Source: Hexactinellida sp. DTS-2022 | Taxonomy: Eukaryota; Porifera; Hexactinellida | Reading direction: 5' to 3' | Assembly: GCA_028753945.1 (NCBI GenBank) | Contig: JAPNXP010000015.1 | Span: 682,001-746,000, forward strand | DNA: 64,000 nt | Shown here: positions 5,182 through 53,527 of the stretch, piece by piece | Position numbering within the stretch: the stretch's first letter is position 1 | How the letters are laid out: each line of letters starts with the position of its first letter | The notes under the pieces: generated by a model | Database searches by the model: none | The model's input: only the letters and a program-made list of their open reading frames with translations | What the model was told of the DNA's origin: nothing | Position numbers and translations under genes: made by a program

Positions 5182-5757
5182 AGTTATTTGTTAATGATTT
5201 TAATTTGCAATGATGTTCTTTTAATTTAGAACGGATTGTACAAGTAAGCAGCTAATTTCCTGTTTTAATATAATTTCAACTACAAATTAGTTGCTACTGC
5301 GGAGTGCACAAATAATACCATTTTATGAACTAATCGGTAATTAATTAATTAAATAATAGTTGGCAAAACTTCCGAGTAGTTTACTATAAGAAGTTAGTAC
5401 TTAGTATTAATTAATTAACCGAGAACTTTGAATGAACCATGCATTATCGATGTAATTACGAACAATCAATTCTCGTGACTCTAGTTAAAGGTTTTGATTA
5501 GATTTGTTCGAACTTTTTGTGGTATTATCTACACAGCACCTTTAAATGTTTACATGCAAATAGTACATAGTTCTCAAAGTATAATGTCCATTTTGTATTT
5601 ATTCTATGAAACGATTATTTACGTAGAGAAATGCTTTGTATATTCGTATAAAAACAATAGATCGGCCTAGTTGAAAATCCGTTTACAGTTAATCAGTCAT
5701 TTACCAAACTTGTTTTATAGTTCTCTCACTGCAGCGCATACCACTTACTAGATTAAA
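5182..5757. other. AT-rich intergenic region
   Basis: No gene seen. Repeated TTAATTAATTAA-type tracts occur near 5340 and 5407. It presumably holds the 3' UTR of HtrA2 and the promoter of the phosphatase gene. Confidence 0.5.
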
Positions 5758-9549: not shown

Positions 9550-9810
9550 CCAGCATTCACATTCTAGAAAGTTATTTATTTAATACCGAGGAATTACCTG
9601 TAAAGCGGTTCGTTTGTCTACGTGACTTCTTAAACAGAGCTCTTTTATTCAAGACATTAATGTTAACAACGAGTGGTGTTAATTCAGCTTATACTTCAGT
9701 TATGTAATATTCTTTTAACGCCAATTAACTATTTGAGCTATTCTTACTCTATTTAAATTATTAAGTTTTATAAAATCCGTCAGTTTTTATACTACCGTAT
9801 ACATGACACT

Positions 9811-30616: not shown

Positions 30617-33600
30617 ATGAGTGCTGAGAGCAGCGATAAGAGTCTTCTGCCAGGTATCAGCTGTGAGCGGGCGGGCGGACTGTTCCTGCAGAAGAGACAG
30701 AAAGGACAAGATCCCAAATCTTCCCCTCTCCCCAAGAGGTCCCTCCTTGGGCTCGACCAGCTGGCTAGGGAGAGAAGAAAGCTGGAATCCGAGGAGCCTT
30801 TCAAGACCCCGCGTCCCAGGCCTGTTCCTGTAGTCCACCCGCGGGAAGGCAGGGAGTACGCGTTTTCTAATTCCAGCGACAAGCGGGGCGTAAAGCGCGA
30901 TCAGCGGGCGGTAGACAGGCGCTATCGGCCGCGGGAAGAGGACACCCCGGGGTCTCTGCACGGGCACAGGGTTAAGGGGCGGGAGAGGTGGGAGGAGAGG
31001 GTGCGGGAGCGCGAAAAGCGACACCCTCTCTACGCCACTTCGCGGCACCACAGGGGGAGCGAGAGGAGCGAGAAGAGCGAGAAGAGCGAGAGGAGAGAGA
31101 GCTCAAGACGGGAGACAGGGGAGTGTACCCCCACTCCTGATCAGAGATTGCACAATCAGATGCTCACACCCTCGCGAGTGGCTTGGGATGAAAACGATCC
31201 AGTAAGCATATACAGTAGAACCTCGTTAGTAGGAACACAATTAATACAATGTTCCGGTTAATACAAACACTACTTGAGTCCCTTCAAAGGCTTTCAATAC
31301 AAATGATATTGGTTAATACGAATTCCGGATAAGGCGAACACATTCTGAAGTCCTCTGGTGTTCATACTAACGAAGTTCTACTGTAAACTGATCCCCTTAG
31401 ACACGTTACAGCAACTAACATAGCCATGTCTATCTAGCAAGAATTATCCAGGAGGGCTAGACGTTCTTATGGGAGTACGATTTTTGGAAATTTTTTAATT
31501 AGGAGCGCGAAGATTTGGAAATCTCCTATATCATAACATTAGTTTGTGATTTAGACGTATGGAAATTGTATCAGCAGGATTAGTAGCGTACTACAAAGCT
31601 GTATAACACACCGCTCTCTAGATATCTGCCACAGACCGTCCCTGGGACAGCCCCGCGCCCAGCAGAGCTCTCTCCCCGGAGCTGTCTCCCTCCCAGGTGT
31701 CCCCCTCCCGCCGCGAGTGGGCGGAGGAGCAGCGGCGCCTGGACCGCGCCTGGTACGCGCAGGAGGAGATGGGAGAGGCGTTCGACGCGACGCACAGCGA
31801 GCTGGCTAACCTGAGGGGCGAGTACGTGCAGCAGAAGGAGGAGCAGGTCCGGAGCAGAGAGACCGCCCGACAGAGGGAGCGCCGGAGGGACACCGAGCTC
31901 TGGGAGGAGAACAGACTCATCGTGAGCGGAGTTATGCGGCGGGAGACCTCGCTGCTGTTCGATGAGGAGGAGGAGGTGGGACGCACACATCTCCTGGTGA
32001 GCATACTTATGTAGGGGACTGTAGTGTAGTGTAGTTATGTATATGGACACTAGGGGAATAATTGTTTCATAATAGAGAGACTTCATAATAAGCAAACTCA
32101 ACTTCATGTTGCTAAATTGAGACCATAGGGCTTGTTCATAATAGAAGTTTTGATAAAATTTATTTCACAATAACCAGACTTGACTGTAATAGGAAAATAA
32201 ACTCTAATTATTGTGAATTTATTTCTTGTGGTTTAGATATCGAATCCGGTTCCTCCTTTCTTAGACGGTCGGGCTATATTTTCGCGGCAGCCAGAGCCAG
32301 TCGTGCCTATCAAAGACCCGACTTCAGATCTCGCGGTTCTCAGCAAGAAGGGCTCTAAACTTGTTAGGTACCATCGCGACGAGAAAGAGCGTAAAAAAGC
32401 GCAGAAGAAGGAGTGGGAGCTGGCCGGGAGTAGAATGGGAGAAATCCTTGGTGTCAAATCGGAGCATAAGGACTCAGACAACGAGGACGACGCAGAGGGC
32501 ACCAGCTACAAGAGCAGTCATCAGTTCGCTAAGTACATCAAACAGAGCAGGGAGGAGGGCAGCAGCAACTTCTCCCGCTCCAAAACACTTCTGCAGCAGA
32601 AGCAGTACCTGCCTATCTACGCGGCGAGAGAGGAGCTAATGCGACTCATAAGACAGAACAGAGTTATTATAATCGTAGGGGAGACAGGCTCTGGGAAGAC
32701 TACACAGCTTACGCAGTACTTGTACGAGGAGGGAATGAGTCGGTTCGGGACTATAGGGTGCACGCAGCCCAGGCGAGTAGCGGCCATGAGCGTTGCTAAG
32801 CGCGTCTCTCTCGAGATGGGACAGGAGCTGGGGGGGGTTGTGGGGTACTCGATTCGATTCGAAGACGTCACTTCCAGCGAGACCAAGATTAAGTACATGA
32901 CAGATGGGATTCTGTTGAGGTGAGAGCAATAATAAAAAACTTTCTGACAAAAACTTTTTCTCTCGTTAATATTACGAATATGGATAAGGTGAATTATTGT
33001 TAAGGAGTACAGAGTTTAATTCCCCTAGTCTATACAAGTGCATGTATGTGACTCCAGTTAATACGAATTCCGGATAATACGAACAAATTTCTGCAGTCCC
33101 CTGGTGTCCGTATTAACGAGTCTACTGTATTTATATTTGTAGAGAGTCGCTTCGGGATTCTGACTTGGAGCAGTACTCGGCTATTATAATGGACGAGGCT
33201 CACGAGCGGTCGCTGAACACAGATGTGCTGTTCGGTCTGCTGAGGGACGTCGTGGCGCGGAGAAGCGATCTGAAGTTAATTGTGACCTCTGCTACCATGG
33301 ATGCTGAGAAGTTCTCTAACTTCTTTGGTAACGTTCCTATATTCAAGATTCCTGGCAGAACATTCCCAGTTGACATTATGTTCAATAAAGATAATGTTGA
33401 GGACTTTGTAGAGGCGGCAGTTAAACAGGTAAGCATACCATGGATATTGAATGTGCTGTGTCTGGGTACATTTAGTTATAGTAACCTCGTTAGTATGAAC
33501 ACCAGGGGACCGTCAAAGTGCGTTGGCCTTATCTGGGATTCGTATTAATCAATATAATTTTGTATTGAAAAGAATTGAATGGGATTGAAATAGTGTTCGT

Positions 33601-36600
33601 ATTATAACCGTGTTGGTACTAACCAGGGTTTCATACAGGGGGTGGTAGGGGGTGCACTTGCCCCCCCCCCCCCTGCTCCTTCAAGTGCCCCTCCCTAGAA
33701 AACCACTTACACACCGAAGTTTTACTTTATGCCTCCCTTAATAATGTACATATCCCAGATTGCCCCCCTTGCATGCAAATCCTGTATGAAACACTGCTAA
33801 CTCGGTTCCGCTGTTGTAGATAATAACAATCCACCTGTCCGCGGCCGAGGGGGACATCCTGGTGTTCATGCCGGGCCAGGAGGAGATAGAGGTCACTTGT
33901 GACGTAGTATCGGACCGGCTGCAGCAGCTGGACGAGTGCCCGCCTCTGGCGGTTCTGCCGATATTCTCGCAGCTCCCTTCCGACCTGCAGGCCAAGATAT
34001 TCCAGCGGGCTCCGGAGGGAGTCCGTAAGTGCGTGGTCGCTACCAACATAGCAGAGACATCGCTCACAGTGGATGGCATTATGTACGTGGTGGACACCGG
34101 GTACTGCAAGCTGAAGGTTTACAATCCTAAGATTGGGATGGACGCTCTGCAGCTGTACCCCGTGAGTCAGGCCAACGCCACTCAGAGGTCGGGCCGCGCC
34201 GGGAGGACAGGGGCAGGTCAATGCTTCAGACTGTACACAGAGAACGCTTTCAGGTGATACACACTACAGTTAATTATACAAGTTGTATACATGCAACTTT
34301 GTTTATACGAACTCGTTGGGACCAGTCAACACGTTTGGATAATCAATTTAAGGTTGAACTAATTTATGGAATAATATTGGGACCAAAACAGGTGTGTTCA
34401 GATTATTGAAGAGCACTGTAATATGTGAATTATCGCTCACGTACAGCTTATTATACGTATGTATAGGACAACTGAAAATTAGGTTATTTAGGAGTAAATT
34501 GTCAATGCGTGCTTGGGGAAAGATTATTATGACTGTAAATATATGTTAGCTGTCAAGTTAAATCGATATTGTACATTATTTTCTGAAATAAATTCCAATT
34601 AGAAAATATCTATCACTTACAAGTTACAACTAATTTTTGTAATACGTGAACTCATGTTCTTATCTAATACTACTAACTAGGGGTTACTCGTTACTGCGGT
34701 TCCGCAAACTCCGGTGGCACCAGTTGCACTGCCCGTTTCGGAAAGCAGTCCTTTGAGATCTCCGCTATAAAGGCGGGTCCCACGCCGCAGCAGCCGCCCA
34801 CTGCGCTGCAGCCCTTCTCCGCCCACCCCCTCACGATGTCTCTGTACTCCGTCACGCCCAGGGACCGGGTCTTCTGGGGAGTGTCTGTTTCGCTATCGAC
34901 GTGGCTCCAAAACTTGTTAACCGTCTCTTTGTCGGGTAGCGGGTCGGAATTGTTGGCGTAAGCACAAACGTATTTAATGTTCTTCCTCCCTTTCACAGCT
35001 TCCATCACAATGTCTAGTCCTTTGGAGATCGGTCCATGGTTCGAACAGTTTAGCGAGACAGCTAATAAATCCGGGAACTTGTCTAGAATAACTGGCAGCA
35101 CCTCTGCCAAAGGCTCTTCGCTGTGCAGTCTGCACTTATCGTTGTCCTGCAGACTCAGAGATATCCACACTGGCTTGTCAGTCACGCGCATCACGCCCGT
35201 GAGAGCGGCAATCGCTTCATCGAGACTAGACATTGTCTCGCAAATGTAGAAATGCACATAAACAGACAGCGCCTTTGTTATCTCCTCGTATATCAGACTC
35301 GCCGCTTCCATATCCTCAATCTTCTCTCCCAGGTAACTGTAGTTGAGAGGAGGAATGCTCCCTGCTACCGATATGGGTCGCGATATCCCTTCCTCCCTCA
35401 TCGCGGTCACTGCCTGCTCCGCTAGTCTCCCCGACAGTTCCACCAGTTCAAGCATCCTGTCCCGTATACCCGCGTTCTCCAGGTATTTGGGGACCGTAGC
35501 GTAGTTGCTCGTGGTTATGACGTCAGCGCCTGCGTGGATGTACCTCTTATGCAGATCCACTACGTAATCCGGTTTGTGCAGCAAATGGGCTGTGCTCCAT
35601 AGCTTGTGTAGGTCGGGAACCTTCGGATAGCTGTCAGTCAGCTCCACCCCCATTCCTCCGTCCAGGATTAGTCTTATCCCTCTCTGCTGTGTTCTGGGGT
35701 CTGCTACCAATGTTGCCATTTGATGGTGTGCTGTTGTAATAATATATACTAAGCCAGGGTTTATTATAGAATTGTGGGCGATGTTAAATGGTATGAAATG
35801 TTGCAGTGTAAGTACGAATTTGGTGTAATCGCGATTACACCAAGGTGCTGGTGCATTCGCGAAAACACTGGTGTAAGTGCGAATCAATAGATCACTAATT
35901 GATTCGTTCTTACACTGGTGTAGATGTAAGTACGAACTATTGAATATCTAATTTTACATAATTAATTTCAAACAACGTGAGAAACACCCACATATAGGGG
36001 TGAAGGAAGGTTCTTTGCGAATTACTGCTAAAATACTAATCACGAAAAAATCTATATATCTAGATGTGCTTATTTCTACAAAAAATTACAACTACTAAGT
36101 ATATAATGCAAGCCTGCCAGAATTCTTGAAAAATTTCAATCATTGATACAAGTATAATGACTGTAATACACATTTTCGTTGAGGGATAAAATAATTTTGT
36201 GGGCCGTATGTTGTCCATCCTGATATATTGTTAGTTATATAAATACTATCATTTGTAAGAGCATAACATACTAATCTGAAAATAATTATATACGTTTCTA
36301 TATTATACTAACAATTATAATAATGAATCTCGTGAATACAATACTTTTAAGTAATCTACTACACAAAATTACAGATGTTATTTACTGTTACGAATGAGTT
36401 TAATGCTTCCTCAATCTTCTCCTGCTATTTCTCTGAGTCTCGATTTCACGTACACTCTAGTTTTCGATCCACGCTCGAAAATACTCGGTTTGGACTTTCT
36501 AACACCTTTAGATTTAGTCCCAGACTTACTAATGTACTTATCCCGCTTAATCTGGTTCCGAATGGCCTCTGGTACGTCTGGCACAACGAATGCCACCACT

Positions 36601-39600
36601 GATACGATCAGAAAAACCAAATGCTACAAAATATACAATATTATACGTGGACATTTATGTTATTTACAGTCAGGTCTGCTTATTGTAAAAATTTTCGTCT
36701 GTTTAATATGAAATTTTTATTATTATGAACAATTTAACAACTTGTATTAAGTTGAAATCGCTTATTATGAAGTCTCTCTATTATGAACACTATTTTCGGT
36801 CCCTTGAATGTTCATAATAGAATAACCTGACTGTATTATGAAAATTAGCGTATATTAATTATCCTATTGACTCATATACCTCAAAGATTATTGCGAATAG
36901 GAGCTTGAATACCATAGTTTTGTAGTAGAACTCTTTCTGTATTACACTCATGTACGCAATCACCTCGTAGCCAGGGTTAAACCTATACACAGTTAGTCAC
37001 CAATAATATCTGAATATTGCAACCTGCTCGATAGAACTAACCTACAAATTGCCGAATCGCTTACAAAGTTGACATTGCATCCACTGAAGAATTCCTTACC
37101 GCATCTTGGGTTACTAGGGTCATTAGCGTCTCCTCCATCTCGGTAGTATAGCGTCCTATTTCCCGAGTTATTCGTTACAAACCTGTTTACGACAGAATCG
37201 CAGCAGCCCTCACAGCTCTCATTTGCTCTATCGAGATACTCTATGCTTCCCTTATGCACCGCGTCAACACAGCAGTAGTTAGTTCCTAATGGTTAATACA
37301 CTCAAATGTTAACTGCACAATATACATAGATTATTGTTAATACGAACACCAGGGGACCGTCGAAATTAGTTCGTATTATCCGGAAATTCGTATTAACCGT
37401 AGTAACATGCATGTATTTGTATAGGCTAGTGGAATTAAATTTTACTCCTTAACCGATATTCGCCTCAGTGTTCGTATTAACGAGAGTCTACTGTACTAAA
37501 CTGTATAGGAAAATAATCTCTTTCAAGAGTAGGGAATTAAATCTGTACCATTGTTAGTGCATTCGCTCTTTCTGTCGCTCCCTGTTCCTGTGAGATTCAG
37601 ATAGCTACAGCAGTCTGTTGCATTCGTACTGGTGCCATTCACAAACTTCTCCACACAGTTAGTATTAGCTTCGTTTGTGCAATAGAAAGTGGTGGGTATT
37701 AGTATCTGTTCATCATAACTCAGTATAGTATTATTAACTGTAACTCTATAGGAATAAATTCATTTTTTTAGAATCAGCAATTTGATAACAGTAAACCTAT
37801 AATTATACTATTTAGAATTATAAGGGAGTTATTTAATATACAGGGTTATTATGGGATCTGAATGCTTGAATGAAAGGCGGCCTCTGTTCATAATTCCTGT
37901 AGGGAGTGTCGAACGTATTTCTGTAGTTTTCCATTAGAGATTTCGTAGCCCAGTTATTTACGTTCTTGTATTGCTTGCGTTTTCTAATTAACTTGACTAG
38001 AATGGCTAAACACACCATTGTGTAGGTCATGAGGAGGTACAGCTGGAGTATTATTGTCATAATCCACTGTACACCTATGCTGCAATACAATATAGAATTT
38101 ATCACAGAGGTAGCACTACTTGACACGTGGAATTTTGGAAATATACTCAATTCATTTACACCCGCGTACTCAGAATGGCTGATTATGAGTAGCATTGTTT
38201 GGATGAATAATATGAAGTAACTAACCAACACAAATAGTAGTCCTGATATTGTGATCAATTGTGCATAGAAATATTGTATTACGATTATACGCTTGCTTCT
38301 GTAATCGCTTTGCGTTGAATGCCAGCGAGCTTCAATGCACCTTCCTTTAAGCAGAATATAAAAACTCTTACAGCTAGGCAAGTAGACACAAACATCTGCG
38401 AATGAAAACAGGAAAACCAACATTTTCGCGAAATCTACGGTCTGAGCAAAAGAGAACAAAGCGAATAGTATAACTGATCTGAAGAGAATCACTATTATAT
38501 ATCCTCTGTTCCATTTCTTGTAAGGCAGATTGATGTAAGCTCTCCTCAATACAATCAGGAGCAAACACATTACGGGACAAAGTGTATTCTGTAGAATTAT
38601 GTAAATATATTTCAAAGGAAATTGGAATCTTATAGGCGTTGCATTTTCTTGTTTTGAAATAGAAATTTCGGATATGTTTAAGTTTGTCGAATAATTGTAA
38701 TGTTTTATATCGAACTCGTACACCTCTCGTATAACCCAGAATAGATTGGTAGCAAACTCAAGAACTGACAGGGTTAGTAGGAAGTTATACACCATGGAAT
38801 CTATCATCAAGTTCTGTTTAACTTTTGAAAGGTCGACACTTAGAATTGTGGAAAATGGCACATTTTTAAGTTTTATCCAAACTCTATGCTTGCAACTTGC
38901 CAAGTACGCAAAAATGAATAGCATCATGAGCAGATAAGGAACCACAGTAACAGCACCCACTTTGCCTAGAATTGTGTAAATTGCAACCATCTCTTCTTCA
39001 GTTCTCTATAGCTAAGCACTGAAGCCGATTACTATATTTATTATTTATACTGATGGATTCATTTTAATATTTCCCCTTCTCCATATCATAAATAGAAAAT
39101 ATATTAAGGGATTACTCAAAGATATATATTTTTAATTCTATGCTAAGACTTAATGATTAATATTGATTATAGCATGGCGTAATGCATTATATTAAAATAA
39201 CCTGAGTGATCTATAGCGGAAATCTGGGAAGTTATCTCTGTTGACGAAATCTCTGATTGGAATACTGACTAGTGTTGTGTTGAGGAGGTCCTCGCGACCT
39301 GGGAAGCTCGACCTGAATATCCACAGGTTAACTGTACTCCCCAAGTACGGTATAAGGAGGGACTAAGGAATATAGGACATTTTAATTATACAACATTGGG
39401 TTATTTGTGGAAATCTCACATTTGTAATCACTGCGAATTTCGCAATTCCGTCTAGGAGGCTGTACCAGGGCCCGATGTCCTGTACCCTCTCGGGGACTGT
39501 CCGTCTGGTTAGTCGCAGGTACTTTATCGCGTCTAGGCGTATCTCGAAATAGTTGTTGATTAGCGCGAGAAGAGGCGCCAGGGGGAAAGCAGTTGCGAAT

Positions 39601-42600
39601 ATCGTCACAAACCCGAATTGAATTACTACAAAATGACTAGTGTACTTGGCAACTATTTATTAATACAGTAGAACCTACTATAACGGCCACTTAGATTAGG
39701 TCCCCACATGACTCCCGTATAGCGGTCAACTATACATAATGATCATTTTGGCCAATCCCTTTTGTAGCCGTTATTCCACTGTACCTACGTACACTCACCT
39801 AACTCGAGATAATCTTCGAACAGTCCTGTCTCCTCCTCCGCCTCCAGCTTCCTGTCCCTCTCCCAGGGCCGCTTGCCGTCCCCTCTCCTCCCTTTGTTCT
39901 TGTTCTGGAACAGAGAGAGCAGCTCCCGGATGCCCACCTTCACAAGGGGGGTCCCTAGCTCCTTTACGTTATTGAGGGTCTGCTTCAGGGCGAATATAAC
40001 GATCAGCTGGAATGTTAACTCCAGCAAGCATCCGTATTGAGCGCACTTAACAATCAATTGAAAAGTAATGCACTTATTGGGCTTTTAATGCGTTTGTTAA
40101 CTTACATGCTCTAGTCCTACTATTCCTGGGAGGATTCCTCTCCTCCCTGGATAGTTCACAAATAATCTTCCTTTAAAGAAAGCGATGTACATCGGTGAAG
40201 CGTAGAAGTTAACAATTTGGAAGAGAGACATCTTAACTGTGAAAGAGTTGTCGTGTTCGCTATGTGTTCTGTTCAGCTCCCATCGGGTTAGTATTATCGC
40301 CAATTGTTTGTAAATCTAAAAATTTGAAATTTCAAACCTTTGTATGAAAATACAGTCAGGACTGCTTATTGTAACAATTTTTCGTCTGCTTAATATGAAA
40401 ACTTTTATCATGAACAAGCCCTATGGTACCAATTTAACAACTTACATAAAGTTTTCATTAAGTTGAGTTCGCTTATTATGAAGTCTCTATTATGAACACA
40501 ATTTTTGGTCCCTTGAATGTTCATAATAAAGAATGTAGTACGTACACGTTATAATACTAACCGCGTTCATAATGAATATGAATATGAGCTGCAGAATGCC
40601 GGCCGTTAGAGATACTAGCATTGCGCCTGCTAGTCCGGCCACAGCACTCAGAGTGGGGTCTCTGTTAACGCTGATTCGCACCAGGGCGAGCCCTATAAGG
40701 GGAGCTATGCCCGCTCGGTAGAATATTATCCCGATTAGAATCGCTATTACCGCCAGTACCAGGGTGAGGGTAACGGAGAGGCCGGCCAGTATCTTTAGTT
40801 TGATCTGTCTGGGCTCTTGAAAGAACTCCGTTTTCTATTCAAACAATGCACATTGTTAATGTGTACTCGTATTAGGGCCGTTCAAACGTTACGTATTCAA
40901 AATTCCATGAAAAACACACCCTCCCTATGCCAGGCTTTTGGAACATTTGTGCTACACATTGGTTGACCCCCTCCTACCTTGGAAGCGTTACGTAACATTT
41001 GAACATGCCTTATGTCCCTTATGTAATATTCCTTACGCCAGTAATAGGATTGACTTTCCAAATCTGTTTCTTGACTGCGTCGCTTGCATCCTTGTATCTA
41101 TTCCGCATGGCGATAACGAACTCCGGTCTGGGACTCTCCACGAGAGGTTCGTAGTCGAGGAGGTCCCATTCGTACTGCAGATAGAACTGGTACCGCTTCC
41201 AGAACTCGAGGAACAGAACTGCCCAGAAGGACATGAATGCCGCGTACAGGACTGTTCCCTCGTTATCAAGAATATTCGATATCTTTGTGGATAATAATAA
41301 TTATATTACAGTCGAAACCGGTTTATTCTAACTCGGGCTATTCTAACTATTAGTGATACAATCTTTTCTAAGAAATTCCAACTATACTAGTATTTTCATC
41401 GGTTTTTTCTTACTATTTTTGTCTGAAAAGAAATGGTTAGAAAAAACCGGTTTCAACTGTATCAATAATTTGTTGTTCTTCCTAATACCAAATACAAACA
41501 ACCTACTTTGACAAGTAAGCAAGACTCCTCTATTGATTCGAAGTCGCATTTAAAGTTACAGTCTGGACACAGCACTAGGGTTTCTCCAGTCCTCTTACAA
41601 GCTTCCGAACTAGTAATACAATTCATAGGGTCTCGCTTTATAATACAATCTCTATCTATTCTAAATTATTTATTTTTAACATATTAACTGTTTGTTGTTG
41701 GAATACTTACGCGATAATGTTATATCCGAGTGTATAAGGTCCCAGCAGGAAGATTATCAGTCCCATTACTGTAGAGACATGCAGCCATTTTGTGTAGAAA
41801 CCTGTTGCATCACGATGTAAATTAAATTAAATTATAACAAGTGATATTATTATACTATGTTACCTAGCCATGCGAAATATATAGCTATTTTCTCCCCGAG
41901 ATAATGCCTTATCTGGGGAATGGGTTGTGTCTTGAAGAAAGCCCTCGGCTTGAAAGATGCCCAGTAGAGTTTTAGAAACTGTCTCTCTGTCAGTGGCTGT
42001 CCCATGTCCTCTCTCTCTTGGTTTTCACAGCCCTATAGCGACAATCAATTTATTTAGAGATAATGCGATTTATATGTATAACTCACCTCATGTAAGGGGT
42101 ATGCTTGTTGAAATATTTTCTTTTTCAAGAGTTTATCTATTCCTGTTTTCAATCCATAAGGATCAGGTCCATACGAAGTGGTGTGTAGCATATATTCTAT
42201 GATTGAGCATCTCTGCCCACTCGAGAAGAATGTATCTTCATTTTCTATTCCGTGATATCTTTAAATACATTTATAATTAGACAAGTCCCGATATTAGTTC
42301 AGCTTACAAAGACTCACTTGTATAAGTTTTTATTCACAAATACTTTTGTTCGGTATTTCAAGGGTTCGAGATGAGACGGCACTTTTGGAACAAGGAAACT
42401 AATGCCTAGCTTCTCAATGAAGGTTTTGTTGAGACTCTGTTTAAACTGATACTCTGGGAACTCATCTAGCTCTTCAGGGTCCTAAATTACAATTATTTCA
42501 GTGTACTATTTGACCTGGTAAGTTTATGGATTTCGAGACTGACTTGGTAAGGCATGGCATAATTCAGCTTCTCTGCAAACTGACAGAGAACTTCAAACGG

Positions 42601-45600
42601 AGCGTGGAGCTTAATGAAATGTAGAGTTGTGGGCTCTTTCTCTTTTCTCTTCAGCAAATTGAATATTTTCTTGATTCTCTTGTCTTTGATGACGAAAGCC
42701 TGAAATTATACATTTACAGTAGAACTTAGTTAGTACGTACTAACTTATAATAATTTATAAACAAATTTTGTCAATTTATATGTAGTGTCAACTCGGTTAG
42801 AACGTACACTTGGATATTACGTACTAATTTTTCTCTCCCGAGGGGGTACGTACTAACTGAGTTCTACTGTACTATTAATGGGGTTGGAGAAGGGTCTATC
42901 CAAAATATACAACATTATATGAAGCAGTTTAGGTATAATTATATTTTACCTCGAGTATTTCTTCTTCCATCTGTATTCCCACACTCTCCAGCTCTTCCAA
43001 GAAATATTCCCTTTCTCCTACCATTTCTAGTCTATTATTGCCATCCTCAGCATATTGCAGCTGTCCCTCTACCGTGGACTCTTCGCTTACCTGTTGGAAC
43101 ACGAGTACGAAATCTATTTTTAGAAATATTGTAAAGGTTTAAATTTAAATTTTTAATGCAAGGCACTATTAGTCAACCACGGCACAGCTGTAATTTTAGA
43201 TTTATAGATATTTTTTGAGAGATTATAGGTAGGATATGTTATATTATAATAAATTACCAATTCTCCTCTTTCCATCACGGAATAACTCTTTGATTGGATA
43301 ATTGATATTGAATTTCTAAAAATATTTTGGAATTAAAATTTGAAATATATATAATTCAAATAAATGCTATTTTTCTTACCTCATCATCAATGGGACTATC
43401 TTCACTAAAGAAAGTTGTAGTAACCTTCTTCGTTTCTAAAAACATTATTACTTGGTAAAGGAACATATTTGACGAATATCTTTTCTAATGTAATTTTCAG
43501 GTACTGACGATGTCCCATAATGCATCTTAATTTAGTGCATCATTTTTGGAAACATAGGTAATTTCTTACCTTCAAAGATGAAAATTTCGTTTTTCTTCTC
43601 AAATTCGACCATTTAGCCTGTTTATTTACAATACATACTACGTATCATGCATATATACAACCCTTGGAATTGAGAATGGGCATACAAACAGTGGTACTTG
43701 AATAGCCATTGTTTTCAAATAACTCAACTGTGACATACAAATATAAAGCTACTTGTACCATTCTTACACTCGTGATTGAGTGACATAATTATGGTATTTC
43801 TCTGTGTGGAATTTGAATGTAAATCGTTTTAAATAATGAATTACAGCAGACGAACATCAGGACTACCAAAATGGGTTCACTTTATCCGAAATGAGTATTA
43901 ACCGATGACATTTGTATTGAACATGATTACAGGACCTTAACTAAAATACAGGGTTGCCAATCCAATCGAGAAGATTCTCGATTGCTGATTGCTGCATTTT
44001 TCATCGATTTTTGTCGATTGGATTGCTTCGATTTTGAATAACACTTTACAAAGAAAATCGAAAAACATAAACAAACAATCGATTGACGAAATTTGGATTG
44101 CCGATTGTCCAAAAAATGGCTCGTTTGGATTGGCAACCCTGGACCTGTAAAACTTAACAAGTTTTAAGCAAAAAATCTATTTTAATTAAGTGCTTAAAAT
44201 TTAAGTTCGGTTTGTTAAGCCCAAGGCTTTCAATTTTTATTTTAACTCTCTTGTTTATAATAAGGGGATTAGCGCGAACGCAGATCCCCACTAACAAAAA
44301 TTACGCCCCCGAGTTTCCCCATTTTGGGGAAATCGCAAACATCAGCCACAAGCGGAGTGCAATGCTCAAGCCTCTTTTTGGGAGTAAAGCCTTGTTGATC
44401 ACTTTATCTCCTGGGCCAGGTAAGTTAAATTACATTCGAACAACTTTTCTATTTATTTCTGTTAATTCAACATAGGTTAAGGGTCAATATTAATTATGCA
44501 GTTTTCATTCTAGTTACTATGGATATGATCTATAATTATCCCATAGTAAACTAAATTGATGTCATAGATGTCAAATAAATATAAGAGCCAAATACTTTTC
44601 CATTTTGGGAAATTTCAAATCTCTATACAGAATATACAAATTGTTTTCAATGATAAGATTAACTAATAGTTAATCTTACCACAAGATTGGCTATAACGAC
44701 AATAATCTATATGATTAAAACTCGATTGTTGTGACAGTGTGTTTGTCCGGATTGTATTAAAATGATGGGGGAATAGAAACCGAATTTATTTATGTGATAG
44801 AAACTAACTTCCAAAAGTTATAATAGGTAAACATGCTGAACACGAATTTCGCATTTATAAATTAGAATATGAATATTTGTTGTTTAAAAGAAAAGGTAAC
44901 AAATTAATGAAAATTTAAATCAACCTAGAAGTTAGATTTCACCAGGTATTATTTGTTAAACAACTTAAAACTATGGAAAATGGTAGAAAGGGATGTATAT
45001 AACATCCTCCATAGTAGAAAGGTGAGACCTGATAAGTGCTGCGGTTAACTGAAACCTCATTATGCTGAAGAAAAGCCATACAAATTAACCGAGCCAACAT
45101 CTTCCAATCGCCAACATCTTCCGTAACATATTTATTTGACATCTATGACATCAATTTAGTTTACTATGGGATAATTATAGATCATATCCATAGTAACTAG
45201 AATGAAAACTGCATAATTAATATTGACCCTTAACCTATGTTGAATTAACAGAAATAAATAGAAAAGTTGTTCGAATGTAATTTAACTTACCTGGCCCAGG
45301 AGATAAAGTGATCAACAAGGCTTTACTCCCAAAAAGAGGCTTGAGCATTGCACTCCGCTTGTGGCTGATGTTTGCGATTTCCCCAAAATGGGGAAACTCG
45401 GGGGCGTAATTTTTGTTAGTGGGGATCTGCGTTCGCGCTAATCCCCTTATTATAAACAAGAGAGTTAAAATAAATACCAAAAAGTGTAAACAAACTAACA
45501 ATTTGCTTAGAACTAAATTAATGAAGTTTTGTTTGGATAAGGTCCTGTCAATACAAAAGACATTGGTTCAGTGTTATTTGTACAGCCATTTATAAATACG

Positions 45601-48012
45601 CTCCTAATCCTGGTCTGATCCAATTTTCATACGCTTCTAATTCCGGTCTAATCCAATTTTCATACGCCTAGATCACAAATTAATATTACACACTGTTCTC
45701 TCTAATATATAAATAGCTGATTTGGACAAGTAAATGAGTGGACTATTAGAGAGAACAGACTGTGCGGTACCAGGAGAGGATTCCAAATTTACAATTTTAC
45801 AAAAATCATGCTCCAATTTCCAAAGGAGTGTCTCGCGCTCCTGGATAATTCCATGTATTGGTTAATAGTAATTCCGGATAAGGCGAACACATTTTGGTGT
45901 TCGTACTGTTGTAATTCATTATATAAAAACGATTTACATTCAAATTCCACATACAGAAATACCATAATTATGTCACTCAATCACGAGTTTGTAAGAATGG
46001 TACAAGTAGCTTTATAATTGAATGTCACAGTTGAGTTATTTGAAAACTATTCTTTCTGGATCACGGGCCAAAAATATGACCATTCTCAATCTCCAAAAAT
46101 GATGTACATACTAAGTCAGGGGTTAGCAAACTCGCCTTTTTAGGCCGGATTGCTTCTTTGGTGCGGCCGGTAGCAGCAATGCCTAAAAGGCTAAATGTTC
46201 TACCGAGGACAATTTTAAGGAATTTTCAACATTCTTAACTCCTGGAATTTTGTTTAGATTCTTTAATAGAAACTGTAGGATTGCCATGTAACTGACTATT
46301 TATTCTTAACAATTTAATTACACAAGTTTGCTAGGTAATTTTGTTCAATAAATGTGATGTAGTGATGCAATATTATTGTAATTAGTCAAAAAATCTGAGG
46401 GCAAGCGAAATTTCCCCAGACCCCCTTATAAGTTGCTCGCTTTGTTTATTGGGCAACTCATATTGACACATTTCTGGATCCGTTAGTGATACTTGTACGT
46501 ATAGTAAGGATATAAGGTTTCATAAGAAAAAACAAACAATTTTTTAGATGCGGCCGGTAATAATATGTCCTTACCTAAGTGTGGCCGTTATGCTGCAAAA
46601 CTTTGCGAACCCCTGTACCAAGTTAACACTGGCTTATCTCAATAGTAACGAGATGCTGGTGGCTACAGTACCAGAGATCCAGCGGACGAATCTATCAAAT
46701 GTTGTTCTCCTGTTGAAGTCTCTAGGAGTGCGAGACCTCCTCCAGTTCCACTTTATGGACCCTCCCCCCGAGGACAACATTCTCAGCTCCATGTACCAGC
46801 TGTGGGTCCTCGGGGCTCTCGACAACACTGGGGAGCTCACAGACCTGGGGAGACAGATGGCAGAGTTCCCTCTCGACCCCGCCCTCTCTAAGCTCCTAAT
46901 CGTATCTTCTGAGCTCGGCTGCTCCGAAGAAGCTCTGACAATTGTTTCAATGCTGTCTGTTCCGGCCATTTTCTACCGGCCCAAAGGCAGGGAAGAGGAG
47001 AGCGACCAAATTAGGGAAAAGTTCGCAGTGCCCGAGTCCGACCATCTAACCTACATGTTTGTGTATCAGCAGTGGAAGAAGCAGAACTGCTCCTCTTCTT
47101 GGTGCCACGATAACTTCATTCAGCCTAAATCTCTTAAAAAAGTGAGTTACAATCTTACATAATCTTACTCACTAGTTCTATTGCAAACAATGCCATACTA
47201 CATTGAATATTATGTCATATTATATTGAAAATATTACAAATTACTAATACCATAGGGAAATTATTGATTTATGCAACTTTCTATTCATTTTGTGGGTAGC
47301 TGCAGACTAAATGTATACTAACCAATTTTAAATAACAAGTACAGTTAACTCGGCTTAATTATTAAGGGTCAGTTTTGTTCCAGGGTAGTTTGACCCAATT
47401 AAGCGGAGAAACTGTACCTCTAATAAGTAAGGGGACCATTACATTACAAACTATGCTACTCTGTAGGTGAGAGAGGTCCGGGCCCAACTCAAAGACATTC
47501 TACTCCAGCAAAAGCTGCCTCTGACGAGCTGCAGCTTCGAGTGGGACATTATGCGCAAGTGCATATGTGCTGCTTACTTCCATCAAGCGGCTCGCATCAA
47601 GGGAGTAGGGGAGTATGTGAATATGAGGACAGGCATGCCCTGTCACCTGCATCCAACTAGCTCTCTCTACGGGATGGGATACACCCCAGATTACGTCATA
47701 TACCACGAGCTGCTGCTGACCTCTAAGGAGTACATGCAATGTGTGACCTCAGTGGACGGTAACTGGCTGGCTGAGCTCGGCGGAGTGTTCTACACAGTCA
47801 AGGAGTCTAGCTGGACTAGGATTCAGCAGCAGGAAGATAGCAAGCGTAAGAAAGGAGAGATGGAGAGTGAGATGCTACGCGCGAGGGAGAAACTTAAGAT
47901 GAACAAAGAACTGGAAGATAATATTACGAGAACGACAAGCGATAGGTTTAAGATAGCTACACCTGGAAAACTAGATGCTTCTTTGCAAAGGAAAACATAC
48001 CACACATTTTAA
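30617..48012 (+). CDS. DHX38: Pre-mRNA splicing helicase PRP16/DHX38 split by a 12.4-kb intron
   Basis: Exons 30617-31201, 31622-31996, 32237-32919, 33143-33428, 33820-34253, 46646-47141, 47467-48012. All junctions are GT..AG, phases agree, and the protein is 1134 aa. Prp16 is the DEAH ATPase that remodels the spliceosome before the second step. The N-terminus is RS/RE-rich; the helicase core has GETGSGKT (468-475), DEAH (565-568), [11 protein letters not shown] and [10 protein letters not shown], followed by the ratchet/OB region ([48 protein letters not shown]). Exon 5 ends LYTENAF plus AG, and exon 6 resumes with T AAC GAG ATG, restoring [18 protein letters not shown] exactly where human DHX38 continues. 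Intron 5 (34254-46645) harbours two minus-strand genes and two U1 snRNA genes. AATAAA lies at 48096. Confidence 0.92.
31213..31383. mobile_element. MITE family A, PRP16 intron 1
   Basis: 171 bp, flanked by TA. CAGTAGAACCTCGTTAGTAG at left and ACTAACGAAGTTCTACTG at right. It starts 11 bp after the splice donor. Confidence 0.85.
31440..31592. repeat. Dispersed repeat with TTTAGACGTATGGAAATTG motif, copy 1
   Basis: In PRP16 intron 1. It shares GATTTTTGGAAATTTTTTAA, TTAGTTTGTGATTTAGACGT and GGATTAGTAGCGTA with 62420-62615 and, inverted, 45595-45865. Confidence 0.65.
32060..32185. mobile_element. MITE family B, PRP16 intron 2
   Basis: TTTCATAATAGAGAGACTTC with core AATAAGCAAACTCAACTTCA and right end AACCAGACTTGACTG followed by TA. 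Left end truncated. Confidence 0.65.
33052..33127. mobile_element. MITE family A fragment, PRP16 intron 3
   Basis: Right half only: CCAGTTAATACGAATTCCGG through GTATTAACGAGTCTACTG, ending 15 bp before the exon 4 acceptor. Confidence 0.65.
33478..33636. mobile_element. MITE family A (diverged) plus C-tract, PRP16 intron 4
   Basis: TAGTAACCTCGTTAGTATGA at left and GTTGGTACTAACCAGGGTTT at right. A run of about 14 C follows at 33661-33674. Confidence 0.55.
34691..35719 (-). CDS. Homocysteine S-methyltransferase-domain protein (nested in PRP16 intron 5)
   Basis: Intronless, 342 aa, from ATG at 35719 down to TAA at 34691. The TIM-barrel methyltransferase family (BHMT, MMUM/YagD, HMT) transfers a methyl group to homocysteine using a Zn-bound thiolate. 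Motifs seen: [10 protein letters not shown] near the N-terminus, [34 protein letters not shown], the first Zn Cys in [10 protein letters not shown] and the CC pair in [10 protein letters not shown] near the C-terminus. The length and SIPP/NYATVP motifs are closer to the S-methylmethionine-type (HMT/YbgG) branch than to BHMT (about 400 aa). The frame is open upstream of the ATG by about 55 codons, but those codons lie in a repeat-rich promoter, so Met at 35719 is preferred. Transcribed opposite to its host gene. Confidence 0.9.
   Translation of the reverse strand: MATLVADPRTQQRGIRLILDGGMGVELTDSYPKVPDLHKLWSTAHLLHKPDYVVDLHKRYIHAGADVITTSNYATVPKYLENAGIRDRMLELVELSGRLAEQAVTAMREEGISRPISVAGSIPPLNYSYLGEKIEDMEAASLIYEEITKALSVYVHFYICETMSSLDEAIAALTGVMRVTDKPVWISLSLQDNDKCRLHSEEPLAEVLPVILDKFPDLLAVSLNCSNHGPISKGLDIVMEAVKGRKNIKYVCAYANNSDPLPDKETVNKFWSHVDSETDTPQKTRSLGVTEYRDIVRGWAEKGCSAVGGCCGVGPAFIAEISKDCFPKRAVQLVPPEFAEPQ
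35720..36410. other. Spacer between the methyltransferase and anoctamin genes (minus strand)
   Basis: Apart from the palindrome cluster this is plain AT-rich sequence. It must hold the 3' UTR of the anoctamin gene and the promoter of the methyltransferase. Confidence 0.5.
35804..35940. promoter_or_regulatory. Cluster of palindromes upstream of the methyltransferase gene
   Basis: Contains a perfect 24-bp palindrome at 35820-35843 (TTGGTGTAATCG and its mirror). Two ACACTGGTGTA palindromes and four GTAAGTRCGAA-type words follow, plus an inverted pair CGAATCAAT..ATTGATTCG. It lies 85-220 bp upstream of the start codon. It could be a regulatory array or the remnant of a small TIR element. Confidence 0.5.
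36411..43612 (-). CDS. ANO: Anoctamin (TMEM16) family membrane protein, 20 exons
   Basis: Exons in transcript order: 43570-43612, 43380-43435, 43258-43315, 42950-43113, 42544-42699, 42318-42481, 42087-42258, 41864-42032, 41711-41801, 41507-41660, 41037-41282, 40562-40834, 40106-40315, 39799-40045, 39420-39625, 39202-39362, 37549-37745, 37042-37285, 36880-36982, 36411-36623. The phases close to 1108 aa. Anoctamins are Ca2+-activated chloride channels or lipid scramblases. Family motifs: [51 protein letters not shown]-like [68 protein letters not shown] and [14 protein letters not shown]. Acidic and Asn residues of the Ca2+ site in helices 6-8 are retained ([17 protein letters not shown]). The loop before the last helix is enlarged and Cys-rich (exons 17-18). 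ATG 43612 has an in-frame TAA directly before it. The subtype is not assignable by eye. Confidence 0.92.
36667..36833. mobile_element. MITE family B, anoctamin last intron
   Basis: 167 bp between TA dinucleotides. CAGTCAGGTCTGCTTATTGT at left and AATAGAATAACCTGACTG at right; the best-preserved copy of this family here. Confidence 0.85.
37333..37493. mobile_element. MITE family A, anoctamin intron 17
   Basis: TTGTTAATACGAACACCAGG at left, GTATTAACGAGAGTCTACTG at right; the left terminus is eroded. Confidence 0.65.
37833..38990 (-). CDS. Orphan multi-pass membrane protein nested in anoctamin intron 16
   Basis: A single-exon frame of 385 aa (ATG at 38990, TAA at 37833) wholly inside the 1456-bp intron between anoctamin exons 16 (ends 39202) and 17 (starts 37745), on the same strand. 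It has about seven hydrophobic segments (for example [91 protein letters not shown]) with short charged loops, and N-glycosylation sites in the second extracellular loop (NYST, NISE). The C-terminal tail is basic then aromatic. The topology suggests a 7TM receptor-like protein, but I see no GPCR motif (DRY, NPxxY). Family unknown. It is not an anoctamin exon: no splice frame links it, and anoctamin sequence is complete without it. Confidence 0.7.
   Translation of the reverse strand: MVAIYTILGKVGAVTVVPYLLMMLFIFAYLASCKHRVWIKLKNVPFSTILSVDLSKVKQNLMIDSMVYNFLLTLSVLEFATNLFWVIREVYEFDIKHYNYSTNLNISEISISKQENATPIRFQFPLKYIYIILQNTLCPVMCLLLIVLRRAYINLPYKKWNRGYIIVILFRSVILFALFSFAQTVDFAKMLVFLFSFADVCVYLPSCKSFYILLKGRCIEARWHSTQSDYRSKRIIVIQYFYAQLITISGLLFVLVSYFILFIQTMLLIISHSEYAGVNELSIFPKFHVSSSATSVINSILYCSIGVQWIMTIILQLYLLMTYTMVCLAILVKLIRKRKQYKNVNNWATKSLMENYRNTFDTPYRNYEQRPPFIQAFRSHNNPVY
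39666..39781. mobile_element. TIR element CAGTAGAACCTACTATAACG, anoctamin intron 14
   Basis: 116 bp between TA dinucleotides. The right end GTAGCCGTTATTCCACTG mirrors the left. It fills most of a 173-bp intron. Confidence 0.8.
40353..40542. mobile_element. MITE family B, anoctamin intron 12
   Basis: Left end CAGTCAGGACTGCTTATTGT after TA; family core GAACAAGCCCTATGGTACCA and TTCGCTTATTATGAAGTCTC. Right terminus truncated near GTTCATAATAAAGAATG. Confidence 0.75.
41309..41459. mobile_element. MITE family C, anoctamin intron 10
   Basis: 151 bp with TA flanks. Left CAGTCGAAACCGGTTTATTC; right AAAAAACCGGTTTCAACTG. The cleanest copy of this family. Confidence 0.88.
42717..42869. mobile_element. 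TIR element CAGTAGAACTTAGTTAGTAC, anoctamin intron 4
   Basis: 153 bp with TA flanks. The right end GTACTAACTGAGTTCTACTG mirrors the left; a relative of family A with different interior. Confidence 0.85.
43613..44235. other. Spacer upstream of anoctamin
   Basis: Holds a partial family A fragment (about 43850-43920) and the CAGGGTTGCC element; otherwise promoter of the anoctamin gene on the minus strand. Confidence 0.45.
43949..44141. mobile_element. TIR element CAGGGTTGCCAATCCAATCG
   Basis: 193 bp in PRP16 intron 5. CAGGGTTGCCAATCCAATCG at left and TTTGGATTGGCAACCCTG at right. The interior is rich in ATCGATT words. No clear target duplication. Different superfamily from the CAGT/TA elements. 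Confidence 0.8.
44263..44427 (-). ncRNA. RNU1: U1 snRNA gene, copy 1
   Basis: 165 nt, read from 44427 to 44263. It begins AACTTACCTGG, carrying the 5' splice-site recognition sequence ACTTACCTG. Stem-loop II has the U1A-binding loop ATTGCACTCC; stem III has GCGATTTCCCCAAAATGGGG; the Sm site is AATTTTTG; the 3' stem is GGGGATCTGCGTTCGCGC then TAATCCCC. Human U1 is 164 nt with the same order. Loop I reads GATCAACAAGG where human has GATCACGAAGG, a change in the U1-70K loop. Located in PRP16 intron 5, antisense to PRP16. An 87-codon ORF across it is fortuitous. Confidence 0.95.
44428..44582 (-). promoter_or_regulatory. U1 copy 1 upstream region (shared arm)
   Basis: The 155 bp upstream of the U1 start are identical in both copies and should contain the proximal sequence element at about -55. 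The stretch around AACCTATGTTGAATTAACAG is the best-placed candidate. No TATA box at -25 is obvious, as expected for Pol II snRNA genes. Confidence 0.55.
45128..45282 (+). promoter_or_regulatory. U1 copy 2 upstream region (shared arm)
   Basis: Mirror image of 44428-44582. Together with the loop it makes an 855-bp divergent promoter region between the two U1 start sites. Confidence 0.55.
45283..45447 (+). ncRNA. RNU1: U1 snRNA gene, copy 2
   Basis: 165 nt on the plus strand, starting AACTTACCTGGCCCAGGAGA. Identical to copy 1 in all U1 landmarks. It is co-directional with, and lies inside, intron 5 of PRP16, but should be transcribed from its own promoter. A 3'-box-like AAACAAGAGA lies 6-15 nt after the end (45455 on). 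Confidence 0.95.
45448..46116. other. Spacer right of U1 copy 2
   Basis: Filled mainly by a dispersed repeat (45595-45865) and a family A fragment (45845-45905). No gene. Confidence 0.5.
45595..45865 (-). repeat. Dispersed repeat with TTTAGACGTATGGAAATTG motif, copy 2 (inverted)
   Basis: Contains ACGCTCCTAATCCTGGTCTG, two tandem TCTAATCCAATTTTCATACG units, a hairpin CTGTTCTCTCTAAT..ATTAGAGAGAACAG (45694-45762), and AGTGTCTCGCGCTCCTGGATAA shared with 62430. Confidence 0.65.
46117..46615. mobile_element. Non-autonomous hAT-type element with 8-bp target duplication
   Basis: 499 bp. The left end CAGGGGTTAGCAAACTCGCC is inverted at the right (AAAACTTTGCGAACCCCTG). The flanks TACTAAGT (46109-46116) and TACCAAGT (46616-46623) match at 7 of 8 bases, the hAT target-site length. 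It contains GCGGCCGGTA near both ends and no transposase frame. It lies 30 bp upstream of the PRP16 exon 6 acceptor. Confidence 0.85.
47342..47414. mobile_element. Short TIR element, PRP16 intron 6
   Basis: 73 bp with TA flanks. CAGTTAACTCGGCTTAATTA at left and CAATTAAGCGGAGAAACTG at right. Confidence 0.7.
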
Positions 48013-49786: not shown

Positions 49787-52700
49787 TTAGAGTCGACAGG
49801 GCAGTTTGTCAGGTGCTAGCATCATGTAGCATCCTTCTAGAAGGGTCAGTAGGAAACCGAATTCTCCTTGAGACAACTTCGGGTCCATAAATGTGTAAAT
49901 GTAGTGCAGTTCTGTGCTCAGTTTCTTTACACGCGCGTACACAATTACAATCTGGAAATATGGGATTATCACATCTGTGGTAAGCTCGTTGTTACAGTCT
50001 TTGAGGTTTTCTAGCATAGTGTTAACAGATCTCTTTATAATGTTAAGTTTGCCTTGAATAGTGTACTCCTGTGAAATGGTGGATAGCATTTGAGCGGGCT
50101 CCTTATACCAGTCGGGATCGAAAGGAATTGAATTAATCGAGAAGAGAGTCATTAAATCGTTACATCGCATGTAGGAGAGTAGAGAGACAGCCCTCTCGTA
50201 TTGGGAATCGTTCTTTCGTTGAAACAGTGAAAATAGAGTGAATAGTGTGTGGTAGATGCGGGGCATGAATAAATCTGAGAGAAAATAAACATCAATCATG
50301 TGAATATTATCCTCAATAAATTCTTGTGAAATCAACCCATGAAGGTTTGCCTTTTCATCAATCATGAATGGTGCAAATTTCTGAACAACTTCAGCTAATT
50401 TTTCAAGGAAAACTTTTGTATCTTGAATAGCGTGAGGCAGTAGATATTGAGAAGCCCCTATACCGGCATAGCTCTCGAAAATGACATCTTTAAGATCTTT
50501 GACAAGCTTCCCGAGGGGGTGAGTGCCAGAGGAGCAGTAGGTGTTCAACTGCTCAAATAAGTTCTTCTTAATTTCGTTAATAATTATTTGAGAATCAGTG
50601 AAACTGTTGGATTCTAGCAACATAAGCTCTTGGGAGGTCGAGGAGGAGGGGTTACAGGAACTGAATTCAAACGAACTGTCCGGCTCACTTTCCACTGTCG
50701 GAAGAGAGAGTTTAGAATTCGGAGATCTGGATGGAGTTGGGAGCTCTTCCTCAACAATTCGATCCGATTCAAAGTTGAAATTTAAAGAGTTAGTTCTTGT
50801 ACACTTCATTTTAATGACGCGTGTTGGAGAGGTGTCTGGCATGTTAAACTCTTCAGGATTTGATTTACATCTCAATCGTACACTTTCCCCATTCAACTCG
50901 AGATTTAAGCACCTCCTAATATCTTCATTAATTGGAGATGGGCTCTTCGATGCCGTTGTAACCGGGCCGACCATAATGTCAAATGAATGTTTCGTCGCTT
51001 TTACGACTCCATTGCTTCTGGATCTATTGATTCCGATTATTGTGTTTGATTTACTTGGAGCGCTTTGCGTGGATTTCGCAAAATTCAGTGTATTATTTCT
51101 TTTGAGAGTAGTCGAATCTTGGTCTTCCCTGGAGGCTCTCCTGTTCATCAATTTGCTGCGGGAAACAGGCTGGAGTGTGGGAGAATCGGAGTCCACCAGA
51201 TGCAGCGCTTGCTTGCACTTCTCAAACAAACTGCACCACTTAGCTTGAGAGGCCGCAGAGTATTTCAACGCTTTTCCTTCCCAACTTATAAAATCGAATC
51301 TGGTCGACTTCTTTGTTCCCCCCTGTTTCGAAATGAACCCATTTGTTAGTCTCAATTCAGACCCCACTCCAACCCACTCGCCCCACCTACCACTGAAAGT
51401 ACCAGAAATTACAATGTCATTATCCAGCCTCAACTCTCCTATACCATTCAACCCCATTGCACCACTCAACCAACCTTCATAAGACTTTCCTTGTCCGTTA
51501 ATAATGAACCCTCTCCCGGATAATACATTATCCCTGAACCTACAAGCACAGTACAGATCTCCAGTCGTTATGGTTAACCCCTGACCCTCTCTGACGTCAT
51601 CCTTCCACATTCCATGGTAGCTCTTCTCGGCATCAGTGGCGTTCTCGACACCATACCCGTTTCGCTTCCCATTTGCCCACTCCCCGATGTACATGCTGTA
51701 CTGGTTGTTACGCGTCAGAAGAAACCGCCCGTGTCCATGTCTCTGCCCTCTGCACCACTGACCCTCGTAATTGTCTCCATTGCCAAATAATATATTGCCG
51801 AATCCATGGTACAGGCCCTCTTCGAACTGGCCGTCGTAAACTTCCATGCGTTTCCCATGAATCCCATCAATCTCAGGTGTGGGAGAAGAGAGCTTGCCTC
51901 TCCCGTGATACAGCCCCTTCCTAAAGTGCCCCACGAATGCCTTCCCTTCTGGCCAGATAACCGTCCCCCTCCCATGCTGCTTGCCCTCTACCCAGGCGCC
52001 TGTGTACTTTGCAGACTGGTACTGTCCGCCAGCAAAGGTGTGCGACCCCTTCCGCACTGGAGGTGGCCAGAACAAACTGGATGCCACTCCAACGTGCTTG
52101 CTTGTTGATTCCTGTCGCGGCACGCCGAGATGGTCAATCGTGGCTTCGTTAATGGCTCTCACCCAATAGTCTCTATCGTCCTGACTGCAGCACTGCAGTA
52201 CGAGATGCACCTCTGGCGCGATCAGCTGGATCTGTAGACGGGACTCCGGCTTTGACTTGCTAGCATAAACCCACAGGAGCTCGAGTGGGATAATCTGAGC
52301 TTCGTAGTTCCCAAGGAAGTCAATCGTGAATTTCAATATTGAGTCCTGGAAAAGTACAAATCCAATAGAGTAACTGGACCATTTTGGTAAACTCAATTTT
52401 CTTTCCTTGCTAGTTAGCAAAATCAATTTCTTGATACTCTTTACTTCCAAACAGTTCAAGAGTTTAGAATGCTCGCTCCAAAACTTCCTGGTGACCTCCA
52501 CCTGGTTCTGCAGCTGTCGTTTCTTCTCGGTGAGTCGGGCTAGCTTGTCGCAGCACTGATTGAATTCCGCTTCTTCCCTCTCCATGTGTGTGTCAATGGA
52601 CATACTCAGCTCGTTGGATAGAACTACTATAGAGGCGCGCTCCTCATGTACAATCAGTAGCAGACAAGAGAGCTTGAGAGAGAGTATGCGACTGGAAATA

Positions 52701-53260: not shown

Positions 53261-53527
53261 TCTAGTCTAGCAAATAGCAAATATACTTTCATTCTACAAT
53301 AATTTATGTTATTTATAGTTTAAAATAATTGCTTATGCAACTGTATTATTTTTGCCAGGATATATAAGCCATCTAATTCCAATGAAGGTTCACCATACCA
53401 TATAGCATGCTCAATATTACACATTATGTATATGCAAAAGTGTCGTTTTATATGTCGTTGGCAAATTTGTCGACTCCTTTCGTCAAGTCGAATTGACTAA
53501 TTAATTATTGGCGAAGCACATAAATTA

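Follow-up and report, generated by a model that had tools for sequence, protein, structure and literature searches.

The Drosophila 'gene within a gene' described by Henikoff in 1986 is reportedly a protein gene nested on the opposite strand of an unrelated gene; that case differs from the locus reported here in being of a single level and is not known to involve snRNA genes. The ctenophore Hormiphora californensis has 2357 nested genes, and for 484 of these, the doubly nested ones, the host gene is itself intron-nested; same-strand nests are also present, and many of the nested genes have flanking transposable elements, according to the parts of that article available to us (PMC8527503). For the glass sponge Aphrocallistes vastus, the accessible sections of the genome account put the number of nested genes at 2432, or 12.4% of the gene set, report conservation for many of these and describe microsynteny (PMC10282587). 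In the first intron of Polr3e, as described in the available portion of that work, an antisense MIR is occupied by Pol III and transcriptional interference results (PMC5358760).

Here, we analysed a stretch of 64,000 nucleotides (the window) from the glass sponge Hexactinellida sp. DTS-2022, in which we very probably have a real multi-level nested-gene locus: two opposite-strand genes occupy an intron of PRP16, one of them encloses a third, and no U1 matches were found other than those in the same intron. The locus shares with Hormiphora the presence of a gene in an intron of an intron-nested gene, whereas the Hormiphora nests are not linked, in the parts seen, with a host encoding a splicing factor or with genes for spliceosomal RNAs (PMC8527503). 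Aphrocallistes belongs to the same sponge class as the source of the window and nesting is frequent in it; its nesting account, as far as that text was accessible, mentions neither PRP16 nor the anoctamin nest nor U1 (PMC10282587). Polr3e resembles the locus in having a small-RNA transcription element antisense in a gene of the same system, but that element is a Pol III-occupied repeat, whereas those here are U1 genes, with no others found in the genome (PMC5358760, available in part). Given the nesting frequencies of Hormiphora and Aphrocallistes, nesting at the PRP16 locus is of a known kind, and the rarity implied by an earlier, sequence-only reading of this DNA does not hold, since a glass sponge has many nested genes and a ctenophore many doubly nested ones. 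The portions of the literature available to us contain no account of U1 genes within an intron of a splicing-factor gene, which is not proof of absence.

PRP16 and the protein genes in its long intron

PRP16 was rebuilt from the sequence as seven coding exons that encode 1134 amino acids with zero internal stops. The gene and the protein genes that it contains are as follows (window coordinates).

30617–31201, 31622–31996, 32237–32919, 33143–33428, 33820–34253, 46646–47141 and 47467–48012, forward strand: PRP16 exons 1 to 7 of the gene model
30617–34253, forward strand: PRP16 (DHX38) exons 1–5; human PRP16 5yzg_Z, E 0; Pfam DEAD and Helicase_C
34254–46645, forward strand: PRP16 intron 5, 12,392 bp, phase 2, GT–AG, with boundaries CAG/GTGATA ... 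CTCAATAG/T
46646–48012, forward strand: PRP16 exons 6–7; Pfam HA2 and OB_NTP_bind; aligned to human PRP16
34691–35719, reverse strand: homocysteine S-methyltransferase, 342 amino acids, single exon; Pfam S-methyl_trans 8.2e-50
36411–43612, reverse strand: anoctamin (TMEM16), 20 coding exons, 1108 amino acids, no internal stop; Pfam
37746–39201, reverse strand: anoctamin intron 16, 1,456 bp, which houses the third gene (gene model)
37833–38990, reverse strand: seven-helix membrane protein gene, 385 amino acids, one exon; belongs to a multigene family

The encoded protein possesses a DEAH helicase core together with HA2 and OB domains, and its best phmmer match is PRP16 (1388 bits in all, versus 785 bits for DHX8), which identifies it as PRP16/DHX38 rather than DHX8/PRP22, PRP2 or PRP43. 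Human PRP16 (5yzg_Z) aligns to query residues 145–1123 in a single phmmer stretch that is continuous through the exon 5/6 junction. The sequence-only reading had proposed that exon 5, ending at 34253 in phase 2, and exon 6, starting at 46646, restore the conserved protein; the join is exact and the alignment unbroken. The gene model likewise bears out the coordinates, phase and size of the 12,392-bp intron, as against 223–420 bp for the other introns (420, 240, 223, 391, 12392 and 325 bp in order), and the dependence of PRP16 on the removal of a gene-bearing intron follows from the sequence. On read-through past exon 5, a stop is met immediately after the intron-split codon. Weak 5′ splice sites in the gene-bearing introns were considered and ruled out: counted from the weakest, the donor of PRP16 intron 5 ranks 14th of 25 and that of anoctamin intron 16 ranks 13th of 25.

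Repeats account for much of several longer introns in PRP16 and the anoctamin gene, including 337 of the 420 bp of PRP16 intron 1 and 178 of the 223 bp of intron 3, and short elements carrying terminal inverted repeats (TACAGT) lie inside introns at 31211–31385, 41307–41461 and 42715–42871. Elsewhere in the window, long single-exon ORFs encode an Ig-domain receptor tyrosine phosphatase (5752–9549), an EGF-repeat protein (9757–12561) and a MORN/VPS9 protein with a below-cutoff alsin match (49787–53266).

Gene models and Pfam matches agree with the earlier claim of two opposite-strand protein genes in PRP16 intron 5, the methyltransferase and the 20-exon anoctamin. The coding spans of both, and both of the U1 genes described below, lie wholly within 34254–46645. 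The anoctamin protein contains both the channel and the dimerization domain (Pfam Anoctamin, 7.7e-130; Anoct_dimer, 3.3e-45), and anoctamin-6 is its best solved relative by phmmer. Introns of this gene other than intron 16 measure 50–263 bp. Exons 16–18 (36983–39362) encode approximately 200 residues (824–1020) that appear by eye to be Cys-rich and Asn-rich; residues 824–1020 are omitted from the phmmer alignment to anoctamin-6.

A third gene, also anticipated from the sequence, is present within anoctamin intron 16, where the coding span 37833–38990 is enclosed by 37746–39201 and is co-oriented with its direct host. Since this host itself lies inside the PRP16 intron, the nesting is three deep. 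The label 'orphan' that had been attached to the 385-residue product is wrong: public sequence contains 43 relatives, and a search of its own genome gave 28 matches at 24 places, itself included, so that 23 other places encode relatives, several matches being pieces of one place (counts from our genome searches for large families and repeats are lower bounds). A relative in Oopsacas minuta is 40% identical. An AlphaFold2 model of the protein (pLDDT 78.9, pTM 0.73) was obtained, and the predicted fold of the family appears GPCR-like; among the structures listed, no family besides GPCRs stood out. Pfam searches at E up to 1 assign none of 33 sequences (the window protein and 32 of the 43 homologues) to a receptor family. 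An RPPFIQAFR tail is conserved in most aligned members of the family.

The U1 pair, its inverted repeat and its putative promoter

The distal part of PRP16 intron 5 contains the following features; arms and spacer are given without strand.

43708–43911: outer left arm of an older inverted duplication, 86.5% identity to the right arm
44236–44582: inner left arm of a perfect 347-nt inverted repeat (U1 unit), 0 mismatches
44263–44427, reverse strand: U1 snRNA gene copy 1; Rfam RF00003, 141.8 bits, full length
44478–44493, reverse strand: PSE-like element of U1 copy 1, −66 to −51; the upstream 150 nt are identical in both copies
44583–45127: 545-bp spacer between the U1 arms, largely interspersed repeat according to genome matches
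45128–45474: inner right arm of the perfect 347-nt inverted repeat (U1 unit), 0 mismatches
45217–45232, forward strand: PSE-like element of U1 copy 2, −66 to −51; resembles U2, U4, U5 and U6 upstream stretches
45283–45447, forward strand: U1 snRNA gene copy 2; Rfam RF00003, 141.8 bits, full length
45853–46050: outer right arm of the older inverted duplication, 86.5% identity to the left arm

The two snRNA genes noticed earlier in intron 5 are thus both U1, each scoring 141.8 bits where the RF00003 gathering cut-off is 69.5 bits. They are arranged head to head (genomic C7:726263–727447, window 44263–45447), are identical, span covariance-model positions 1–166 and carry ACUUACCUG, the end that pairs with the 5′ splice site; GUAAUUUUUGUUAG occupies the place of the Sm-type site. 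In the 112.4-Mb, 18-contig assembly, where the window corresponds to C7:682001–746000, both of the two U1 matches lie in the PRP16 intron (41 of 1702 first-look candidates scored), and a 225-nt U1-unit query found no further U1 in the whole assembly at E up to 10.

The outer arms align at 86.5% over 208 columns with 14 mismatches and five gap openings, and no further copy of them was found among the scored places of the genome (40 of 506 candidates scored). For the spacer, 84 genomic matches were obtained, counting itself, from the scoring of 40 of 2470 candidates; those elsewhere fall within query positions 104–445, and the stretch at approximately 43939–44133, between the left outer and inner arms, is an interspersed repeat with 112 matches, itself included. 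At the outer-arm rate about 12 mismatches would be expected in the 182 inner-arm positions outside U1; none is observed. The simplest reading is that gene conversion across the inverted repeat keeps the U1 units identical, and a very recent event or strong constraint is also possible. Folding of 44236–45474 gives a long perfect hairpin with a minimum free energy of −736 kcal/mol, a value that stands without a shuffle comparison at that length. Because the U1 genes lie in a perfect 347-bp inverted repeat, the PRP16 pre-mRNA is itself predicted to contain a long U1/anti-U1 hairpin. This repeat within a single pre-mRNA, and not convergent transcription, is the clearest possible source of double-stranded RNA.

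The 16-nt element at −66 of U1 has counterparts at −66 to −71 of one U2, the U5, the U4 and two U6 genes and resembles a proximal sequence element. None of 500 mononucleotide shuffles reaches its score of 53 (highest 50) over the six upstream regions, two of which come from U6 genes whose upstream regions are related to each other, a kinship that is lost in the shuffles; with U1, U2, U5 and U4 alone, 20 of 500 shuffles reach the score, in what is a weak test. The element suggests that U1 is transcribed from its own snRNA-type promoter. By eye, the snRNA upstream stretch near −66 approximates TTATTANNNAACCAYA, a possible promoter element.

Spliceosomal RNA genes were found in small numbers in the 112-Mb assembly: searches gave two matches for U1, two for U2, one each for U4 and U5, and two full-length and three weak partial matches for U6. 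The loci besides U1 (contigs numbered as in our genome searches) are as follows.

C8:399459, C8:555682, C1:5431278, C11:594441, C12:5868954 and C15:3602552: snRNA loci other than U1

The two U2 genes are 156 kb apart, with two differences in the body and upstream identity limited to 40 nt, and the U2 gene at C8:399459 (forward strand) is flanked on both sides by exons of a dynein heavy-chain gene (reverse strand, C8:389700–409400). A general placement of snRNA genes in splicing genes was not seen, as none of the ten neighbouring ORFs scanned (three near the U2 gene at C8:399459, two near the other U2, one near U5, three near U4, one near one U6 and none near the other U6) gave a splicing family. 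With U2 between dynein exons and no splicing family among the ten ORFs scanned, the pairing of U1 with PRP16 may be a coincidence, and chance is a fair rival as its source.

Linkage in related assemblies and competing explanations

Related assemblies were compared for the methyltransferase, the seven-helix gene and the PRP16 ORFs (not the anoctamin); contigs of equal size in base pairs were taken as the same contig, without names or coordinates, and the size given is that of the longest contig per match. The methyltransferase homologue set comprises seven sequences at 66% identity or more, the next being at 40%; the Oopsacas minuta homologue is 69% identical. A contig of 927,430 bp carries the methyltransferase, the seven-helix gene and the PRP16 exon-3 and exon-7 ORFs. 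The methyltransferase is found with the seven-helix gene on each of the contigs of 1,155,672 and 13,716 bp, with the PRP16 exon-3 and exon-7 ORFs at 1,026,804 bp (each ORF on two contigs) and with the exon-7 ORF at 324,920 bp. At least one partner is thus present on 5/7 methyltransferase contigs (seven-helix gene 3/7, PRP16 pieces 3/7), and those of 796,183 bp (O. minuta) and 96,047 bp have neither a seven-helix nor a PRP16 match. From the PRP16 side, ten ORFs taken as close relatives lie on eight contig sizes, five of which (711367, 17969, 1220174, 67494 and 984920) have no methyltransferase or seven-helix match. The relatives' proteins were clustered at 90%, PRP16 was represented by the best 120 of 463 matches and ORFs of suitable length alone were considered, so that the absence of a partner means little. 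The same nesting, which had been suggested as something to look for in related species, may be kept at least in part, judging by the shared partners of five methyltransferase contigs, with two showing none.

We accept the locus as real on the gene models, the family matches, the ordinary donor, the intact U1 genes and the lack of further U1 matches, the PSE-like element of the snRNA upstream regions, the identical inner and decayed outer arms, the linkage and the commonness of nesting. Perfect inverted repeats are a known hazard in assembly and library preparation, which counts for an artefact in which the joining of two PRP16 halves enclosed foreign sequence, or fold-back created the inverted repeat. 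Such an artefact is highly improbable, since the 545-bp spacer and the older outer arms at 86.5% are unlike a simple fold-back, the contig of the window is 3.58 Mb long in an 18-contig assembly, and the partners found together at 927,430 bp and in pairs at 1155672, 13716, 1026804 and 324920 bp argue against misassembly. Assembly of PRP16 from two transcripts by trans-splicing is extremely unlikely. Leader trans-splicing adds a 5′ leader and joins no two coding halves, and the PRP16 halves are collinear, on the same strand, of matching phase 2 and bounded by ordinary splice sites. In its favour, Aphrocallistes has a trans-spliced leader, so that the process is present in the group, as stated in the portion of that account available (PMC10282587). 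Misassembly and trans-splicing, both named by the sequence-only reading as cases that would overturn it, are made less likely by the linkage in other assemblies. That the 385-residue ORF is an alternative part of the anoctamin transcript would fit its position within intron 16 on the same strand, but is very unlikely: the ORF encodes an entire protein from start codon (ATG) to stop, this protein is 68–83% identical to three proteins on other contigs, and none of the 23 other places in its own genome that encode relatives lies less than 200 kb from an anoctamin match.

A functional coupling, in which the supply of U1 sets the level of full-length PRP16 and U1 is in turn tuned by transcription of PRP16 across the pair, has been considered beside chance. 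The U1 supply could act by way of 5′ splice-site use, by suppressing intronic polyadenylation or by means of the U1/anti-U1 hairpin. The coupling would be in keeping with the failure to find U1 genes other than this pair in the assembly, the 347-bp hairpin predicted in the PRP16 pre-mRNA, the stop met directly after the intron-split codon and U1 telescripting, which is a known phenomenon in the sources available in part. An excess of intronic poly(A) signals was ruled out, as PRP16 intron 5 contains ten sense-strand AATAAA against about 12 expected from base composition; this and the U2 gene between dynein heavy-chain exons, showing that snRNA genes occupy unrelated hosts too, leave the coupling unlikely. 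A putative feedback device, in which all U1 genes form a self-homogenizing inverted pair within the PRP16 intron, is distinctly unlikely; U1 supply would then decide the recognition of the long PRP16 intron and its protection from premature 3′ ends, and PRP16 transcription across the pair and the 347-bp hairpin would tune U1 output.

Proposed origin and significance of the nest

Under the preferred reading of a real nested-gene locus, PRP16 would be transcribed through the entire nest and intron 5 would be removed by ordinary cis-splicing. The nested genes would use their own promoters, for which, in the case of U1, the snRNA-type upstream element offers support. The nest probably originated by the insertion or carriage of existing genes into the PRP16 intron; because exons 6–7 encode the conserved HA2 and OB domains, genes would have moved in rather than PRP16 having gained distant exons. 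The U1 units would have been homogenized by gene conversion while their flanks decayed and collected repeats.

Three-level nesting has already been described, and the locus adds one well-resolved example. What is unusual is that the only U1 genes found, arranged as a perfect inverted repeat, sit in an intron that U1 must help to remove, and that this intron belongs to a gene encoding a different splicing factor. The locus thereby offers a natural case for studying the expression of an essential snRNA whose genes lie within a Pol II gene, the maintenance of identity between snRNA genes present in two copies and the tolerance of cells for a long perfect hairpin when an essential gene has one in its pre-mRNA.
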